From Lacticaseibacillus pabuli (GTDB lineage: Bacteria; Bacillota; Bacilli; Lactobacillales; Lactobacillaceae): DNA of 64,000 nt. The notes below the pieces were generated by a model. The model was not told the DNA's origin, made no database searches, and was given only the letters and a program-made list of their open reading frames with translations. The stretch is taken from the NCBI RefSeq assembly GCF_028736235.1, contig NZ_CP117884.1, positions 248,001 through 312,000 of the forward strand. The letters are read 5' to 3'. The position numbers were made by a program, and so were the translations under genes. Shown in pieces: positions 6,606 through 60,701 of this stretch (the first letter of the stretch is position 1; each line of letters begins with the position of its first letter).

Positions 6606-7149
6606 CTTGGTACAGTACTTTCACGTACCAGTGCTTAGACATGTGGCAAATGCCTATATCGAAATATCCAGAAACACCCCACTACTCGTACAATTGTTCT
6701 TCATTTTCTATGGCCTGCCAGGTCTAGGTGTGAAGCTCAGTGCGAACGTTAGTGGGGTTTTTGGTCTCATCTTTTTGGGCGGCAGCTACATGGCCGAGGC
6801 CTTTACCGGGGGCTACAATGCAATTTCTAAGAGTCAAATCGATTCCGGACGGGCGCTTGGGCTGACCGATTTACAGCTCGCGCGTTACGTCGTATTACCG
6901 CAGGGGTTAGCAGCCAGCGTGCCGGCACTTGCTGCTAACGTTATTTTCCTGATTAAGGAAACCTCTATCTTTTCTGTCATTGCCGTTCCAGAGCTCACTA
7001 ACACCGCGCTGGATCTCATTGGCTTGTACTACCACAGCTCGGAGTACCTCTTCGTGCTGGTTGTTGCTTATGCAATCGTGCTGATTCCACTCTCGGTTGC
7101 CCTGACTTACCTCGAAAGGAGGGTGCGTTATGCTCAGTTCGGTCGCTAA
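6490..7149 (+). CDS. Amino acid (probably cystine) ABC transporter permease 1
   Basis: A 219-aa membrane subunit of a polar amino acid importer of the HisM/GlnP family. It begins with a transmembrane helix (residues about 15-40) and has about five in total. Family motifs are YIEISRNTPLLVQLFFIFYG and the EAA-loop region SGRALGLTDLQLARYVVLPQG, which docks on the ATPase. AGGGGG precedes the ATG. The 3' end overlaps the second permease by 20 nt. Substrate is inferred from the binding protein and the Cys-rich leader, not from this sequence. Confidence 0.9.
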   Translation: MDWAIISQSLPQFAAGLVLTLKLAVIGILGALIVGAISSLVQYFHVPVLRHVANAYIEISRNTPLLVQLFFIFYGLPGLGVKLSANVSGVFGLIFLGGSYMAEAFTGGYNAISKSQIDSGRALGLTDLQLARYVVLPQGLAASVPALAANVIFLIKETSIFSVIAVPELTNTALDLIGLYYHSSEYLFVLVVAYAIVLIPLSVALTYLERRVRYAQFGR

Positions 7150-55430: not shown

Positions 55431-56032
55431 TTTCACTATACTTGGCTGAAGATCAGAGCCTGTTGAATACGGCTTTGGCACAATTGCTCGATTTGGAAGA
55501 TGACCTGCACGTGGTCGGCACGGCAACGGATGGTCAGACCGCGCGTGATGAGGTGTTGCGGCTGCAGCCTGACGTCGCCATCCTAGATATTGAGATGCCC
55601 AAGCTAACCGGCTTAGACGTGGCGGATGCGATTCACGATGCGGCTATTCCCACCAAGGTCATCATTCTCACAACTTTCGCTCAGAAAGCATACTTTGAGC
55701 GTGCCGTGCACGCAGCGGTGGCGGGATATCTGCTTAAGGACAATCCGAGCGACGAACTGGTCGCGACGATTCGCGATGTCGTTGCTGGGCAGACCGTGTA
55801 CTCACCGGAGCTGGTGCAGAACATGTTGTCTGCTGATAGTAATCCGCTGTCTGCGCGGGAAAAGGACGTGCTGGTGGCCGCTGCCACTGGTGAGACCACG
55901 AAGGACATCGCCGCGTCCCTGTACTTATCCGACGGGACGGTGCGTAATTATCTCTCAGCTATCTTTAGCAAGCTGGGGGTGCACAATCGCCTTGAAGCCA
56001 TCCAAACCGCCAAGCAAAATAAGTGGCTGTAA
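55427..56032 (+). CDS. Response regulator, NarL/LuxR type
   Basis: A 201-aa two-domain regulator. The receiver has the acidic pocket (LAEDQ), phospho-acceptor Asp54 (AILDIEMPKLTG) and Lys in the LLKDNPSDELV region. The C-terminal LuxR helix-turn-helix reads LSAREKDVLVAAATGETTKDIAASLYLSDGTVRNYLSAIFSKLGVHNRLEA. The start overlaps the kinase stop (ATGA). Probable target: the iteron region at 52561-52664. Confidence 0.94.
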   Translation: MISLYLAEDQSLLNTALAQLLDLEDDLHVVGTATDGQTARDEVLRLQPDVAILDIEMPKLTGLDVADAIHDAAIPTKVIILTTFAQKAYFERAVHAAVAGYLLKDNPSDELVATIRDVVAGQTVYSPELVQNMLSADSNPLSAREKDVLVAAATGETTKDIAASLYLSDGTVRNYLSAIFSKLGVHNRLEAIQTAKQNKWL

Positions 56033-56041
56033 AATAATTTT

Positions 56042-56070
56042 GACGGCCCGGCAAACGCGGAGCCGTCTTT
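56042..56070 (+). terminator. Terminator after response regulator
   Basis: GACGGC, loop, GCCGTCTTTG. Short but well placed. Confidence 0.6.
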
Positions 56071-56121
56071 GTTTAGCCAAGCTTGACTGCAATCATTTCC
56101 AAACATTTTCAGAAATAGGCG

Positions 56122-56150
56122 TTGACAGGTGGCGCAATCTGGATTAATCT
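56122..56150 (+). promoter_or_regulatory. Promoter of the branched-chain attenuator unit
   Basis: TTGACA (56122-56127), 17 nt, TAATCT (56145-56150). The transcript would begin about 20 nt before the leader peptide. Confidence 0.75.
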
Positions 56151-56178
56151 AACATCAACATTAAGCGGAAGTGAGGAA

Positions 56179-56271
56179 ATGACGATGAATATCAACGCAA
56201 TTATTAACAATGCAAATATCAATGCCATTTCCGCTGTTCGTGGATTGTTGTTGTTGAAGCCGAGGAGTTAG
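56179..56271 (+). CDS. Ile/Leu-rich leader peptide
   Basis: A 30-codon ORF: MTMNINAIINNANINAIS, then AVRGLLLLKPRS. It contains five Ile, one Val and a run of four Leu, which is the hallmark of ilv/leu leader peptides. The second ATG (56185) has the better-spaced GAGG site and would give 28 residues. It ends just before a set of alternative hairpins and a strong terminator. Starvation for Ile or Leu would stall the ribosome and favour the antiterminator. Confidence 0.88.
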   Translation: MTMNINAIINNANINAISAVRGLLLLKPRS

Positions 56272-56382
56272 CTGTTTAGCGCAAACAGTTAAGTCCTCTT
56301 ATTCGTGCATTTCGTGCAAGAGGGCTTAGCAACAATCCCAGGGGGGCCCATCTTGCACACGCTGCAAGGTGGGCCCTTTTAT
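56272..56382 (+). promoter_or_regulatory. Transcription attenuator (anti-antiterminator, antiterminator, terminator)
   Basis: Segments: 1 (56295-56300, CCTCTT) can pair with 2 (56313-56325, CGTGCAAGAGGGC). Segment 2 can instead pair with 3 (56346-56358, GCCCATCTTGCAC) with a one-base bulge. Segment 3 (GGGCCCATCTTGCA from 56344) pairs with 4 (56363-56377, TGCAAGGTGGGCCC) followed by TTTT, forming the terminator. The choice 1:2 plus 3:4 versus 2:3 is the classic attenuation switch. Confidence 0.85.
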
Positions 56383-56411
56383 ATACCGGGACCCGCCAAT
56401 TCATAAGGAAA

Positions 56412-57593
56412 ATGGTGGATAAAATGGAATCAAGTACAGGTAAGGTTAGCTACAAACGTATTTTTCAGTTTACGGGTGCGATTATCGCGTTCCTGATCGG
56501 GTCGGGTTTCGCGAGCGGACAAGAAGTGCTCCAGTTCCTCGCCAGTTACGGCATTAAGGGCATCATCGGTGGGTTTGTTTCCATGATTCTCTTCGCAATC
56601 CTCTGCGCCGTTCTCATGAAGTTCGGGTTTAACAACAAGAACAACCCTAAGGCAGATGGGTTCCGCTACTACTGCGGCAAGATCATCGGAACCTTTATGA
56701 AGTGGTACACGCCGTTCTTCTGTTTCCTCATCGGGATTGTGATGATCTCCGGGGCGGGGGCAACCATGAACCAATACTTCGGCATCTCGACCATGACCGG
56801 GACCGTCATCATGTCCGTCATCGTCTTTGTTACCACGATGTTTGGCTTCAAGCGGCTGGTGGATATCATCAGCTACCTTGGCCCACTGACCATCATCTTC
56901 ACCATTCTCATCGGTGTCATTTCCATCATCAAGCACCCGGTCAACCTGATGCAGGCCGATGCCGTCATCAAGGCAACGCCAAACCTGCCATTCGGTGCCG
57001 GTAACTCCAGCAACTTCTGGCTGATTGCCGCAATCCTCTACGTGGGCTACAACGTGGTCGCGGGTGTCCCATTCATGACCGTGCTGGGCAAGGATGCGAA
57101 GTTCAAGCGCGAGGCCGTTATCTCTGGTGTGCTTGCTGGGTTCTTCCTCATGGCAGCCGCTATCATGCTTGACCTCGCCGTGATGGGTCAATTCAAGTCG
57201 ATTGTTCGCGTCGAGGTGCCAATTCTTTACCTCGCCAACGAAATTTCACCGATTCTCAGTGCCATCTTTACCTTCATTCTCCTCGAAGAAATCTTCTCCA
57301 CTGCAGCGCCAATGGTCTGGACCGTCACCTACACCTTCATCGGTCGTGACGCATCCCCACGCAAGTATCGCTGGTTCATCTTTGCCCTGACCGTCATCAC
57401 CGCCGCATGTGCGCAGATGCCATTTGGTCAGCTGGTCGGCATTGTGTACCCAATGACCGGTTACCTTGGCATCGCAGTGCTTGTTGCCATCATTGGTCGC
57501 GAAGTCTACGACCAAATTAAGGCGCGTCGCATCAAGGCCGCGGCAATTGCTGAAGACGATACCGACGAAGCTGCCGGTGAGGAGGTCATCTAA
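56412..57593 (+). CDS. YkvI-like amino acid transporter family membrane protein
   Basis: A 393-aa protein with about ten to eleven transmembrane helices and an acidic tail. It resembles YkvI-type members of the amino acid transporter superfamily (FTGAIIAFLIGSGFASGQEVLQFLASYG at the start, with the unwound GSGFASGQE in helix 1 as in LeuT-fold proteins). The attenuator upstream and the epimerase-like gene downstream suggest a branched-chain amino acid or its D-allo form as substrate; this is inference. Start may be 56412 or the ATG at 56424, which has the better-spaced GGTGG site. Confidence 0.82.
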   Translation: MVDKMESSTGKVSYKRIFQFTGAIIAFLIGSGFASGQEVLQFLASYGIKGIIGGFVSMILFAILCAVLMKFGFNNKNNPKADGFRYYCGKIIGTFMKWYTPFFCFLIGIVMISGAGATMNQYFGISTMTGTVIMSVIVFVTTMFGFKRLVDIISYLGPLTIIFTILIGVISIIKHPVNLMQADAVIKATPNLPFGAGNSSNFWLIAAILYVGYNVVAGVPFMTVLGKDAKFKREAVISGVLAGFFLMAAAIMLDLAVMGQFKSIVRVEVPILYLANEISPILSAIFTFILLEEIFSTAAPMVWTVTYTFIGRDASPRKYRWFIFALTVITAACAQMPFGQLVGIVYPMTGYLGIAVLVAIIGREVYDQIKARRIKAAAIAEDDTDEAAGEEVI

Positions 57594-58939
57594 TGGACAA
57601 AGTGAAAACAACTAGCCGCGCAGACGCGTTTGTCGCTGAAGAGGCCAAGACATTCGCCCCAGTTGGCCGGATTCCGTACTACAACCTCGTGATTGACCAC
57701 GCAAAGGGGAGCCAAGTCGTCGATGTGGACGGTAAGATTTACACTGACCTCATCGCCAGTGCGGCCGCCATCAATGTGGGTCACAGTCATCCCAAGGTGG
57801 TTGCAGCGATTCAAGATCAAGCCGCACAGCTGATTCACTACACCACGGCATATTTCCACCAGGGTCCAGCCAAGGCGCTCGCCGACAAGTTGGTCGCGAT
57901 TACGCCTGGTGACTTTCCTAAGAAGGTGGCGTTCGGGCTTTCAGGCTCTGATGCCAACGATGCCATTATCAAGTTCGCCCGTGCCTACACGAAGCGGCCG
58001 TACGTCATTTCCTTTGATAATGCCTACCACGGTGCGACATATGGGTCCATGACACTCACCACGGTTAGTGACGCAGCATCCCAGGGCATCACGCCGATGG
58101 TACCTGGAATCGCGCACCTGCCATACCCCGACACGGCGCATACCGACGAAACGCCGGCGCAGGTCACTGCACGTTGCATTCAGGCGGTGCACGACCTGTT
58201 CCAGAAAATTTCGGCCGACCAGATTGCTTGCATTCTGATGGAGCCTATCGCCGGTGACGCGGGAATTATCGTCCCACCAACGGACTACGTGCAGCAGCTT
58301 GTGGCCATTTGCAAGGCAGAGGGAATTCTCTTTGCCGTTGACGAAATTCAGCAGGGGATGGGCCGCTCTGGCAAGTGGTTCAGCATCGAACACTTTGGCG
58401 TTGCGCCTGACCTGATGTCTCTGGGTAAGGCACTAGGCTCAGGAATGCCAGTCTCCGCCGTTGTGGGTCGCGCCGACGTCATGGACAGTCTGCGGGCACC
58501 CGCACACACCTTCACCACAGCCGGCAACCCGGTGTGCTGTGCGGCCGCGCTTGCGACGATCAATGTGATTGAAGAAGAAGATCTCGTGCAACGCTCACAT
58601 GATATGGGTGCGTACGTCATCGACCAGTTCAAACAGATGCAACGCGAATTTCACGCGATTGGGGATGTCCGCGGCGAAGGCCTGAACGTGGGGATTGAAA
58701 TTGTCGATCCCGTTACAGGCAAGCCGGATACCCAGGCGGCGCTAAAGTTTGTCTACCGTGCGTTCGAGAAAGGACTCATCCTCATCACTATCGCGGGCAA
58801 CACGATTCGCTTCCAGCCCGCGCTGACGATTAGTCGAGCAGAAATCGATGGCGCACTGGCGACCATGCGTGGCGTGTTCCACGAACTCCAGGTTGGCGCG
58901 ATTGCCGACGATATCGTGGATGACGCGGCGGGCTGGTAA
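57593..58939 (+). CDS. Class III aminotransferase-fold enzyme, isoleucine 2-epimerase-like
   Basis: A 448-aa PLP enzyme. The PLP Lys is K279 (SLGKALGSGMP), the cofactor Asp is in FAVDEIQQGMGRSG, and the phosphate loop is SGSDAND. Segments such as YYNLVIDHAKGSQVVDVDGKIYTDL, ASAAAINVGHSHPKVV and LIHYTTAYFH, plus the 448-aa length, closely match what I recall of Lactobacillus buchneri isoleucine 2-epimerase (about 450 aa, Lys280). That enzyme interconverts L-isoleucine and D-allo-isoleucine. A GABA- or ornithine-type transaminase is the alternative. GGAGGTC precedes the ATG, which overlaps the transporter stop by 1 nt. The Ile-rich leader supports the epimerase view. Confidence 0.85.
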   Translation: MDKVKTTSRADAFVAEEAKTFAPVGRIPYYNLVIDHAKGSQVVDVDGKIYTDLIASAAAINVGHSHPKVVAAIQDQAAQLIHYTTAYFHQGPAKALADKLVAITPGDFPKKVAFGLSGSDANDAIIKFARAYTKRPYVISFDNAYHGATYGSMTLTTVSDAASQGITPMVPGIAHLPYPDTAHTDETPAQVTARCIQAVHDLFQKISADQIACILMEPIAGDAGIIVPPTDYVQQLVAICKAEGILFAVDEIQQGMGRSGKWFSIEHFGVAPDLMSLGKALGSGMPVSAVVGRADVMDSLRAPAHTFTTAGNPVCCAAALATINVIEEEDLVQRSHDMGAYVIDQFKQMQREFHAIGDVRGEGLNVGIEIVDPVTGKPDTQAALKFVYRAFEKGLILITIAGNTIRFQPALTISRAEIDGALATMRGVFHELQVGAIADDIVDDAAGW

Positions 58940-58980: not shown

Positions 58981-59027
58981 AAAGCACGCTAGCCCTGACT
59001 ATGATTGTGTCAGGGCTAGCGTGCTTT
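58981..59027. terminator. Bidirectional terminator after epimerase-like gene
   Basis: AAAGCACGCTAGCCCTGAC, 9-nt loop, GTCAGGGCTAGCGTGCTTT. Perfect 19-bp stem between convergent genes. Confidence 0.93.
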
Positions 59028-59039
59028 GGTTTGCAAAGA

Positions 59040-60701
59040 TTATTCGTCTGCTGCGTTACCGATTTGCGAGAGTGATTTCAGCGGCGTGCGGCGCGTTTGG
59101 AACAGCATGTAGGTGATCGACTCCCCATTCGCGGTGGAATAGACTGCCTTCACCATCTTGTAGTTCTTGATCAGGACACGGGGAACGTAGGCGTTGTGTT
59201 TGGCATTCGACGCATCAAGCCATTCAATCTGGATATAATTTTGCGGCTTTTGGAGCAAGAGCTGGTTGCGAAAGTCGCGATCGGGATTTGAGCGAATCGC
59301 GACAAACTCCACGTTGCGGCGGCGAATGTAGCGCAGCTGTGCATCGTATGACTCTGGAAATGACTGGTAAGGAAAATTGGTTTGCTCAAAGTACCGCACA
59401 GTTGGCACCACGTGGGCAAAGAGGAAAAAGCCGCTGTCGATGCCATTGTACTCAATCAGGCTAACATGATGGCGTTTATGGTGCGTCTGCATGTAGTCAC
59501 CAAACTCTTGTTGTGCGAGGACGTACTTGGTTTGTCCAGCAAGCATGGCATTTTTCATATTGAAGTTACCGGCGACGAACAGAATGATGGCGAAAAAGGC
59601 CAGGACCATCGAGGCGGAGAACCGGTATTGGCGCGACAGCCCAGTCGGGAATGGTTTCATCATCGTGGCCATCATGTTGGGCACTAAGGCGGCCACAATG
59701 ACGACGATAGCCAGCAAGTAGTACCACTGCGTATTGCCGGACCAGTAGGCGGTGACGAACTGACACAGAATCATGGCCAGGAGAATGAGAAAAATACCCT
59801 CCCGTTTTTGAAACTGAACTGCCAGTAGCAGGAGTACACTGAACAACAATGCCAGGATGAAGGGGTGGGTGAAGAGGTCGTTCCCCATTGACTTCAACAC
59901 CAAGGCGACCCGACTAAGGAAGGGCAAGCCATTGCCGTATGCGGTCAGATTCTGAAAGATGTAGACGTGATACAAAGACCCCACGGCGCCGCCCAGCGCG
60001 AATAGTAGGGTGACGATGATGGCGGGGATGGCAAAGCCCATGAGTGAGAATTTGGCCAAACGTCGGAATTTTGCCGGTGCTTTCACCAGTAAGTACAGGC
60101 CGTAGAAGAAGTAATAACCTATGAAAATCCCAATGAGGGTAAACTTCATCCAGAAGACGAGCCCAAATAGCACACCGTTAATCACCATGACGCGGCGCGG
60201 CGGCAACGTTTCTTGTTGTAGGTAGCAGGAACTAAAGTAGATGAAGGCAATAATCAAGGGCGCCGTCAGTTCTTCTGGACTACCCCCGTAGCCAAAAACG
60301 TTAGAGCCGTAAATCAGCGAGAGCGCAAAGAAAGCCACCAAATAGCGGGTGTATTCCCCAAACTTAGCAGCTGTGGCCAATTTCACGAGGAAAATGTAGC
60401 TCGTAATCGCCGTGATGAGTTCCACAATAAAAAGCCCCACAAAGGAGGTTCTCGAAATCAGTGCGGCGAGGGCGTACAAGATGTAGAACACCGGGCCGCG
60501 CTGTTCGAAGAGCGCTTTATAAGGCCAATCGTTTTGAATCCAAGCGCGTCCCATAGTAAAACTGACGTTGGTATCATCCCATTGGTTCGTTGCGAAAATA
60601 GGGGAACTTTCCGTGACGAAGAGCATGGCAATCACGACCAGCCCAATAAACAGGTAGGGCACGTAAGGCTTCAATTTTTCGATGAAGGGCTTCTCAGTCA
60701 T
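59040..60701 (-). CDS. Multi-membrane glycosyltransferase (PMT/ArnT-like)
   Basis: A 553-aa membrane protein with about eleven to twelve transmembrane helices and a C-terminal extracytoplasmic domain of about 150 residues. The first loop after helix 1 has WDDTNVSFTMGRAWIQNDWPYKALFEQRGPVFYILYALAAL, the position where GT39/GT83-type enzymes hold catalytic acidic residues. Such enzymes move sugars from polyprenyl-phosphate donors to proteins or lipids. Its ATG overlaps the stop of the small LPxTG gene by 1 nt (TAATG), so that protein or the wall is a possible acceptor; this is inference. Confidence 0.75.
   Translation of the reverse strand: MTEKPFIEKLKPYVPYLFIGLVVIAMLFVTESSPIFATNQWDDTNVSFTMGRAWIQNDWPYKALFEQRGPVFYILYALAALISRTSFVGLFIVELITAITSYIFLVKLATAAKFGEYTRYLVAFFALSLIYGSNVFGYGGSPEELTAPLIIAFIYFSSCYLQQETLPPRRVMVINGVLFGLVFWMKFTLIGIFIGYYFFYGLYLLVKAPAKFRRLAKFSLMGFAIPAIIVTLLFALGGAVGSLYHVYIFQNLTAYGNGLPFLSRVALVLKSMGNDLFTHPFILALLFSVLLLLAVQFQKREGIFLILLAMILCQFVTAYWSGNTQWYYLLAIVVIVAALVPNMMATMMKPFPTGLSRQYRFSASMVLAFFAIILFVAGNFNMKNAMLAGQTKYVLAQQEFGDYMQTHHKRHHVSLIEYNGIDSGFFLFAHVVPTVRYFEQTNFPYQSFPESYDAQLRYIRRRNVEFVAIRSNPDRDFRNQLLLQKPQNYIQIEWLDASNAKHNAYVPRVLIKNYKMVKAVYSTANGESITYMLFQTRRTPLKSLSQIGNAADE

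Follow-up and report, generated by a model that had tools for sequence, protein, structure and literature searches.

In attenuators of the Escherichia coli trp and his type, a ribosome on the sensor codons picks between terminator and antiterminator, and transcription terminates without a ribosome. For branched-chain amino acids (BCAA), the available text of PMC5794164 describes the leucine-rich attenuator of the Staphylococcus aureus ilv-leu biosynthetic operon, in which a 26-aa leader with Leu codons accompanies a Leu-responsive terminator and antiterminator and CodY is added for Ile, and cites BCAA leaders predicted for L. lactis, Streptococcus and Corynebacterium; the accessible part of PMC2965389 deals with leader peptides in Firmicutes. 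Operons that pair a transporter, the APC/CAT-type AAP, with an adjacent isoleucine 2-epimerase (ILEP) are described for L. fermentum and L. buchneri in the available text of PMC11907396, according to which D-BCAA physiology in lactic acid bacteria is unsettled between production and reuse. The words ‘attenuat’ and ‘leader’ do not occur in PMC11907396, and no paper among the matches listed in one open library links ILEP to an attenuator or a leader peptide.

Here, we analyse a stretch of 64,000 nucleotides of the Lacticaseibacillus pabuli genome (hereafter the window; contig NZ_CP117884.1, positions 248,001 to 312,000), in which a leader peptide and a chain of RNA helices precede the genes of a YkvI-family transporter and a probable isoleucine 2-epimerase. 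We consider it likely, from modelled structures and the gene pair, that this is a ribosome-mediated attenuator that senses leucyl-tRNA supply and controls a BCAA salvage operon for import and D-to-L racemisation. Whereas the S. aureus attenuator controls biosynthesis and is joined by CodY, judging from the text available, the window has its attenuator ahead of genes for a transporter and a probable racemase, and the genome has a match to neither ilvC nor CodY; and whereas the ILEP-AAP transporter is of the APC/CAT type, the one found here belongs to the YkvI family. As in the E. coli systems, the structure is predicted to be chosen by ribosome position and to terminate without a ribosome but, unlike in those, the sensor-codon helix encloses a relay hairpin that would signal stop-codon occupancy to an arm roughly 45 nt away. 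T-box leaders likewise sense tRNA charging, but the window leader has no T-box match (Rfam RF00230). Leucine attenuation is thus known as a kind, and it is the target and the arrangement that are new to us. The features are as follows.

56122-56150, + strand: probable promoter, read by eye (TTGACA 56122-56127, 17-nt spacer, weak -10 TAATCT 56145-56150)
56164-56235, + strand: hairpin of the leader ribosome-binding region (5' arm from 56164) with mid-leader codons (3' arm to 56235)
56171-56176, + strand: Shine-Dalgarno GTGAGG of the leader ORF
56185-56271, + strand: leader peptide ORF, 28 codons, MNINAIINNANINAISAVRGLLLLKPRS (ATG 56185, stop TAG 56269-56271)
56242-56256, + strand: arm 0, sensor Leu codons (56245-56256)
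56262-56277, + strand: arm 1, overlaps the stop codon, partner of arm 2
56283-56300, + strand: arm 2, partner of arm 1 or arm 3
56314-56338, + strand: arm 3 (56314-56330), partner of arm 2, or of arm 4 as antiterminator; 56330-56338 complements the Leu-codon stretch
56344-56358, + strand: arm 4, partner of arm 3 (antiterminator) or arm 5 (terminator)
56363-56380, + strand: arm 5 and start of the intrinsic-terminator U-tract
56412-57593, + strand: YkvI-family membrane protein, 393 aa from ATG 56412 (or 389 aa from ATG 56424)
57593-58939, + strand: class III PLP enzyme, probable isoleucine 2-epimerase / branched-chain amino acid racemase
58981-59027, no strand assigned: inverted repeat, read by eye, possible terminator for the operon and a convergent gene

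A leader peptide and a chain of alternative helices

The leader peptide contains five Ile, six Asn and one Val, along with four consecutive TTG Leu codons, which bears out the five Ile and the four-Leu run that an earlier note on this DNA had read in it; an alternative in-frame ATG lies at 56179. As expected of ribosome-mediated attenuation, the ORF is short, follows a ribosome site and repeats the codon of the presumptive regulating amino acid. Of the 77 Shine-Dalgarno-preceded ORFs of 15-40 aa in the whole window (every start counted), it is one of two that have four I/L/V in a row and nine or more I+L. Its promoter was missing from the output of a consensus promoter scan. The leader ribosome site folds into a hairpin of -17.0 kcal/mol (56160-56240; -17.9 for its counterpart in the Enterococcus leader described below) that encloses much of the Ile/Asn-rich part, and the upstream part of the leader, where Asn outnumbers Ile, may be mainly hairpin sequence.

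Downstream, the arms compete for partners. When free of the ribosome, 56242-56250 of arm 0 pairs with 56330-56338; arm 1 pairs with arm 2 (56262-56277 with 56283-56298) and arm 2 with arm 3 (56288-56300 with 56318-56330). A 12-bp antiterminator with one bulge (3:4, 56314-56325 with 56346-56358) and a 14-bp terminator (4:5, 56344-56357 with 56363-56376), lengthened to 18 bp in the minimum-energy fold (56340-56357 with 56363-56380), are mutually exclusive and lie ahead of the first structural gene, as in an attenuator. The earlier note had both of these pairings right. Folding 56272-56382, the check that it had proposed, gave -52.4 kcal/mol (z -6.5, with none of 200 shuffles as good), and 56165-56385 gave -90.9 (z -7.3). 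Its description of a classic attenuator holds in that a peptide attenuator is predicted, but the plain four-arm scheme gives way to a longer chain with a relay hairpin. The U-tract, UUUUAUAUA, is short, and the terminator is missing from the output of a simple terminator scan. No Rfam family reached its gathering score in the window, with one chance-level match (E 4.9) in 56000-56600.

Ribosome position and the predicted sensor

We folded the RNA ahead of the ribosome codon by codon, on transcripts that stop just short of a complete arm 5, as an equilibrium calculation without kinetics or pausing; codons are numbered from ATG 56179 (subtract 2 for the 28-codon ORF). At a footprint of 14 nt and 37 °C, the antiterminator probability over three transcript ends was 0.81-1.00 at the four Leu codons, with 0.99, 0.99, 0.99 and 0.93 for A-sites at Leu23-26, compared to 0.07-0.18 with the stop codon occupied; without a ribosome it was 0.16. 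At the same footprint, Ser18 to Gly22 were permissive too (0.85-1.00), Val20 among them (0.98-1.00; 0.31-1.00 over all settings), and Lys27 to Ser30 were intermediate (0.29-0.45). The Ile codons are divided: Ile5 is intermediate (0.38-0.76, and 0.53 at footprint 14 and 37 °C), Ile8, 9 and 14 stay at 0.00-0.22 over all settings, and Ile17 gives 0.00-0.06 at footprints of 10-14 nt and 0.84-0.89 at 16-18 nt with the shorter transcript; at footprint 14 and 37 °C these last four codons give 0.00-0.10. When the footprint was varied from 10 to 18 nt, the temperature between 30 and 37 °C and the transcript end between two positions, Leu23-24 remained at 0.85 or more; at the largest footprint, Leu25 dropped to 0.56 and Leu26 to 0.21. 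The stop codon gave 0.01-0.63, highest at the smallest footprint (0.39-0.63 at 10 nt).

At equilibrium, ribosome position is thus predicted to select the structure, with read-through on stalling and termination at the stop codon. The predicted sensor is mainly Leu rather than Ile because read-through is favoured at the Leu run and termination mostly at most Ile codons; with the ribosome at Ile8, 9 or 14, the Leu codons pair with 56330-56338, which leaves little read-through. The modelling therefore points to leucine as the amino acid sensed, with valine possible, and most Ile and Asn codons fall outside the permissive stretch. Of the Ile/Leu attenuator in the earlier note, leucine sensing is retained and isoleucine sensing is considered unlikely.

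When the stretch before the terminator was shuffled, 4 of 2000 shuffles reached the difference between stalled and stop states. The four-state contrast was reached by 0 of 700 shuffles and the helix layout by 0 of 5000; the criteria of all three comparisons were chosen post hoc, with the structure already known. The Leu-codon helix alone is common by chance in the window (2075 of 5000). The sequence and the predicted structure both show a genuine attenuator, which is probably functional.

In the mechanism we propose, a ribosome stalled on the Leu codons would bar them from 56330-56338 and leave arm 1 largely free; 1:2 and 3:4 would form, and polymerase would read through. A ribosome at the stop codon would cover arm 1, arm 2 would take arm 3, and 4:5 would pair, leading to what we infer to be termination in vivo. 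With the ribosome absent or far upstream, the Leu codons would hold 56330-56338 and keep arm 3 off arm 4, again giving termination. Read-through would supply the YkvI-type transporter, a presumed importer of D- and/or L-BCAA, and a putative BCAA racemase that would bring scavenged D-Leu, D-allo-Ile and D-Val into the usable L form; leucine starvation would in this manner lead to uptake and inversion of D-amino acids.

The leader in other loci

We scanned 81 loci (110 regions), including the window and the sister operon of genome G027; the set holds at least three duplicate pairs (L031/L066, L032/L069 and L034/L071), and two loci (L125 and L137) had about 100 nt upstream in the first set and were later scanned further. 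No leader of this kind was found in the 80 other loci, the sister operon included, and no DNA match to it in 29 other genomes of the genus or in plasmids. Besides the window, a loose filter passed four short ORFs, none with a run of four I/L/V, whose hairpins are weak (-8.3 to -10.2 versus -24.2 in the window). As the window alone among the 81 loci had a four-I/L/V ORF with a strong terminator, we rejected an attenuator common to AAP-ILEP operons. At L065, the upstream ORF was rejected as a permease, its Pfam match being to an ABC protein.

By tblastn of a plasmid collection, we found a YkvI gene (50%) followed by an ILEP gene (50%) in Enterococcus faecalis plasmid pAT40b-a (NZ_CP097035.1), annotated as hypothetical protein and aspartate aminotransferase family protein. 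Its leader, the 28-codon ORF MRNLTKFSHKNNMSLCAAGNQVTILLIK ending in TILLIK, is dissimilar to that of the window, yet the helix chain is alike: Ile/Leu codons with a downstream arm (13 bp), 1:2, 2:3, 3:4 and 4:5 pairings, a ribosome-site hairpin, and a terminator followed by seven U. The antiterminator reaches 0.95-1.00 at codons 21-26, at most 0.10 at the five earlier codons sampled and 0.02 without a ribosome; with the stop codon occupied, the longer transcript gives 0.51 (0.46 for 2:3) and the shorter gives 0.97 for 2:3. Its layout occurred in 0 of 5000 shuffles, but its four-state contrast was reached by 89 of 700; with this and the near balance at the stop codon on the longer transcript, the Enterococcus leader is the weaker of the two. 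Among seven loci scanned later, this plasmid alone had a run of four I/L/V before a terminator. The earlier note had suggested looking for the same leader before homologous loci: its layout recurs in the plasmid, its sequence does not recur in the loci scanned.

Just downstream of the plasmid gene pair, positions 6727-7098 of locus L151 give a tmRNA match of 162.9 bits, and the plasmid is typed as conjugative. In a Pediococcus (L153) and a Weissella (L154) plasmid, a terminator-like hairpin without an Rfam match in its region lies at about 1900-1965, directly before the permease of a permease-ILEP operon; in the Weissella plasmid, an I/L/V-rich ORF of 23 codons that has no run of four also lies 363 nt ahead of the permease.

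These results bear on two other readings of the leader. An attenuator answering to a shortage of any BCAA, sensing Ile and Leu (and perhaps Val) as many ilv leaders do, would accommodate the five Ile codons and one Val, the permissive Val20, the intermediate Ile5, the high values of Ile17 at wide footprints on the shorter transcript, and the I-L-L-I run of the Enterococcus leader, but we consider it unlikely given the low values of Ile8, 9 and 14 in all settings and of Ile17 at footprints of 10-14 nt, and a leader in which Asn is commoner than Ile. That there is no attenuator at all, that the terminator instead ends a transcript from upstream, the operon has its own promoter after it and the short ORF is there by chance, seems very improbable: the linked helices exceed chance in shuffles, the layout recurs in the Enterococcus plasmid and 56380-56412 has no promoter-like site (a weak argument, as the same scan missed the leader promoter), even if the leader is absent from all relatives scanned except that plasmid.

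A probable isoleucine 2-epimerase behind a YkvI-family transporter

The enzyme gene, with a strong ribosome site, overlaps the transporter stop as TAATG. Among the solved relatives of the enzyme, isoleucine 2-epimerase sequences take the first three places (E about 1e-145, 490 bits), followed by a broad-specificity racemase (380 bits) and an alanine/serine racemase (311 bits), and chains named only 4-aminobutyrate aminotransferase score 271 bits and below. The enzyme retains Asp222 and the PLP lysine (279 here, 280 in ILEP); in the available text of PMC6053490, Asp222 is the proton donor and Lys280 the PLP lysine of ILEP, and homologues more than 70% identical to L. buchneri ILEP in O. oeni and L. 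plantarum have no activity. In a tree of 53 rows (49 different, the assayed ILEP proteins themselves not among them), the enzyme and its G027 relative fall outside the Lactobacillales ILEP clade, as sister to 37 rows of Lactobacillales and Sporolactobacillus ILEPs that include Lentilactobacillus; the enzyme's own branch, outside the Lentilactobacillus-type clade, is flagged as long. Among the best 25 of 70 NCBIfam matches, the generic equivalog PRK08593 (‘aspartate aminotransferase family protein’) is the sole one past its cut-off. Judged by sequence, the isoleucine-epimerase-like gene of the earlier note is probably just that, and a GABA/ornithine transaminase is disfavoured.

For the transporter, neither Pfam nor NCBIfam gave a match at E 0.001, and a YkvI profile found no real match among solved structures. 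Several of its named relatives are called ‘YkvI family membrane protein’, in agreement with the earlier note. One YkvI relative, P0001, is 92% identical and is encoded on a contig of 3224 bases. It is not among the ORFs that resemble the AAP-type permease of L068 (E 1e-10), which make up 45 of the 60 ORFs upstream of ILEP in the 81 loci. Whereas an ILEP relative is present at E 1e-100 in 146 of 301 genomes of the family (own included), YkvI is present at E 1e-20 in 2 of 397 genomes, the own one and G027. Judged by title and start of abstract, none of the papers listed with the word YkvI visibly concerns transport.

YkvI adjoins ILEP in eight loci and two gene orders: YkvI comes first in the window, G027 (L002) and the E. 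faecalis plasmid (L151), and ILEP first in Gudongella (L041), Soehngenia (L042), Peptostreptococcus (L047), G529 (L125) and G814 (L137); L049, YkvI-linked in one scan and not by tblastn, is excluded from this count. The matches in Gudongella and Soehngenia are both only 23-24% identical. A whole ILEP lies within the flanks retrieved for two of 23 further YkvI loci, some of these flanks being cut by contig ends: one of the 11 from the order search (within about 1.5 kb) and one of the 12 from the phylum search, where another has a piece. The link between transporter and substrate is strengthened because the pair recurs, yet most further YkvI loci are not beside ILEP. Among the neighbours of YkvI in seven other scanned loci and one plasmid locus are glycine/sarcosine reductase, enolase-superfamily, class I/II aminotransferase and antiporter genes, which speaks against a narrow role for the whole family.

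Host physiology and the direction of flux

The host genome (2.58 Mb, two contigs) has no ilvC match, in a search whose control found ilvC in 14 of 14, and the host appears unable to make BCAA. According to the available text of PMC11907396, an L. lactis strain that cannot synthesise BCAA is able to grow on D-BCAA when it has ILEP, AAP takes up both enantiomers, though growth on D-BCAA did not clearly profit from it, and L. fermentum also lacks ketol-acid reductoisomerase; the paper proposes storage followed by reuse. Reuse is the direction that a leucine-starvation switch fits, and a link to starvation-induced recycling of BCAA, as the earlier note had proposed, is sensible.

Two of the three brnQ-type importers of the host have T-box matches of 80 and 76 bits (E 1.7e-16 and 2.9e-15), below the Rfam cut-off of 93. 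At one brnQ locus (L149, C1:166873-168117, reverse strand), an Ile-rich ORF of 30 codons lies between a T-box match and brnQ; it has a ribosome site, and its start region pairs with the middle of the ORF. This is possibly a tandem of T-box and leader peptide on one importer. Kinship of this ORF with the window leader was rejected, as the peptide score was equalled by 689 of 5000 shuffles; the DNA score was higher than that of all 5000 background stretches. Just before the leader promoter, 56105-56115 is an exact 11-nt match to what we take to be the CodY-box core; CodY control was set aside, as the genome has no codY match (among 14 known genomes, the control search found codY in two, those of Bacillus subtilis and Lactococcus lactis). 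Around the operon, the upstream kinase is patchy, and the downstream gene has no match in the 29 other genomes of the genus; 59040-60701 (- strand) encodes a 553-aa membrane-like protein without a Pfam match and, at E 1e-20, without a match in those 29 genomes.

Two further readings concern what the operon does. It might make D-BCAA, for secretion, storage or cell-wall signalling, with the attenuator merely tying it to the amino acid state: the reaction is reversible, and in seven lactic acid bacteria that carry ILEP, D-BCAA build up as soon as growth begins (available text of PMC6053490). It would be odd for a host that lacks an ilvC match to convert L-Leu to D-Leu upon leucine shortage, and the growth of ILEP-expressing L. 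lactis on D-BCAA (available text of PMC11907396) also runs against production, which we hold to be improbable. We give as little weight to an enzyme of the GABA/ornithine aminotransferase type, or a racemase of other amino acids, with YkvI carrying that substrate and leucine control being indirect. The generic PRK08593 match, the other racemases that come next among solved relatives and the reductase, enolase-superfamily and aminotransferase genes beside other YkvI genes would suit it, but isoleucine 2-epimerases score 490 bits against 271 for the best 4-aminobutyrate aminotransferase chain, and the catalytic Asp and Lys are retained. A leucine-starvation switch on a transporter and a racemase, if borne out, would favour salvage in this lineage.

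A possible mobile module

A broader proposal, which we put forward tentatively and which may well not hold, is that YkvI and isoleucine 2-epimerase form a mobile BCAA-salvage module that has repeatedly gained a distinctive ‘position-window’ attenuator, and that this branch of YkvI imports D/L-BCAA. In such an attenuator, whose sensor codons are themselves an RNA arm and whose nested relay hairpin passes stop-codon occupancy to the antiterminator, read-through would be permitted only with a ribosome on or just before the Leu/Ile run. The leucine switch itself would give a branch of an uncharacterised family a testable substrate class, and the two unlike leader sequences with one RNA layout offer models for attenuators that answer to one codon stretch.

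In L157, a strong T-box (2375-2635, - strand, 137 bits) lies ahead of an operon of aminotransferase I/II and YkvI genes; YkvI genes therefore occur under two kinds of tRNA-sensing control.
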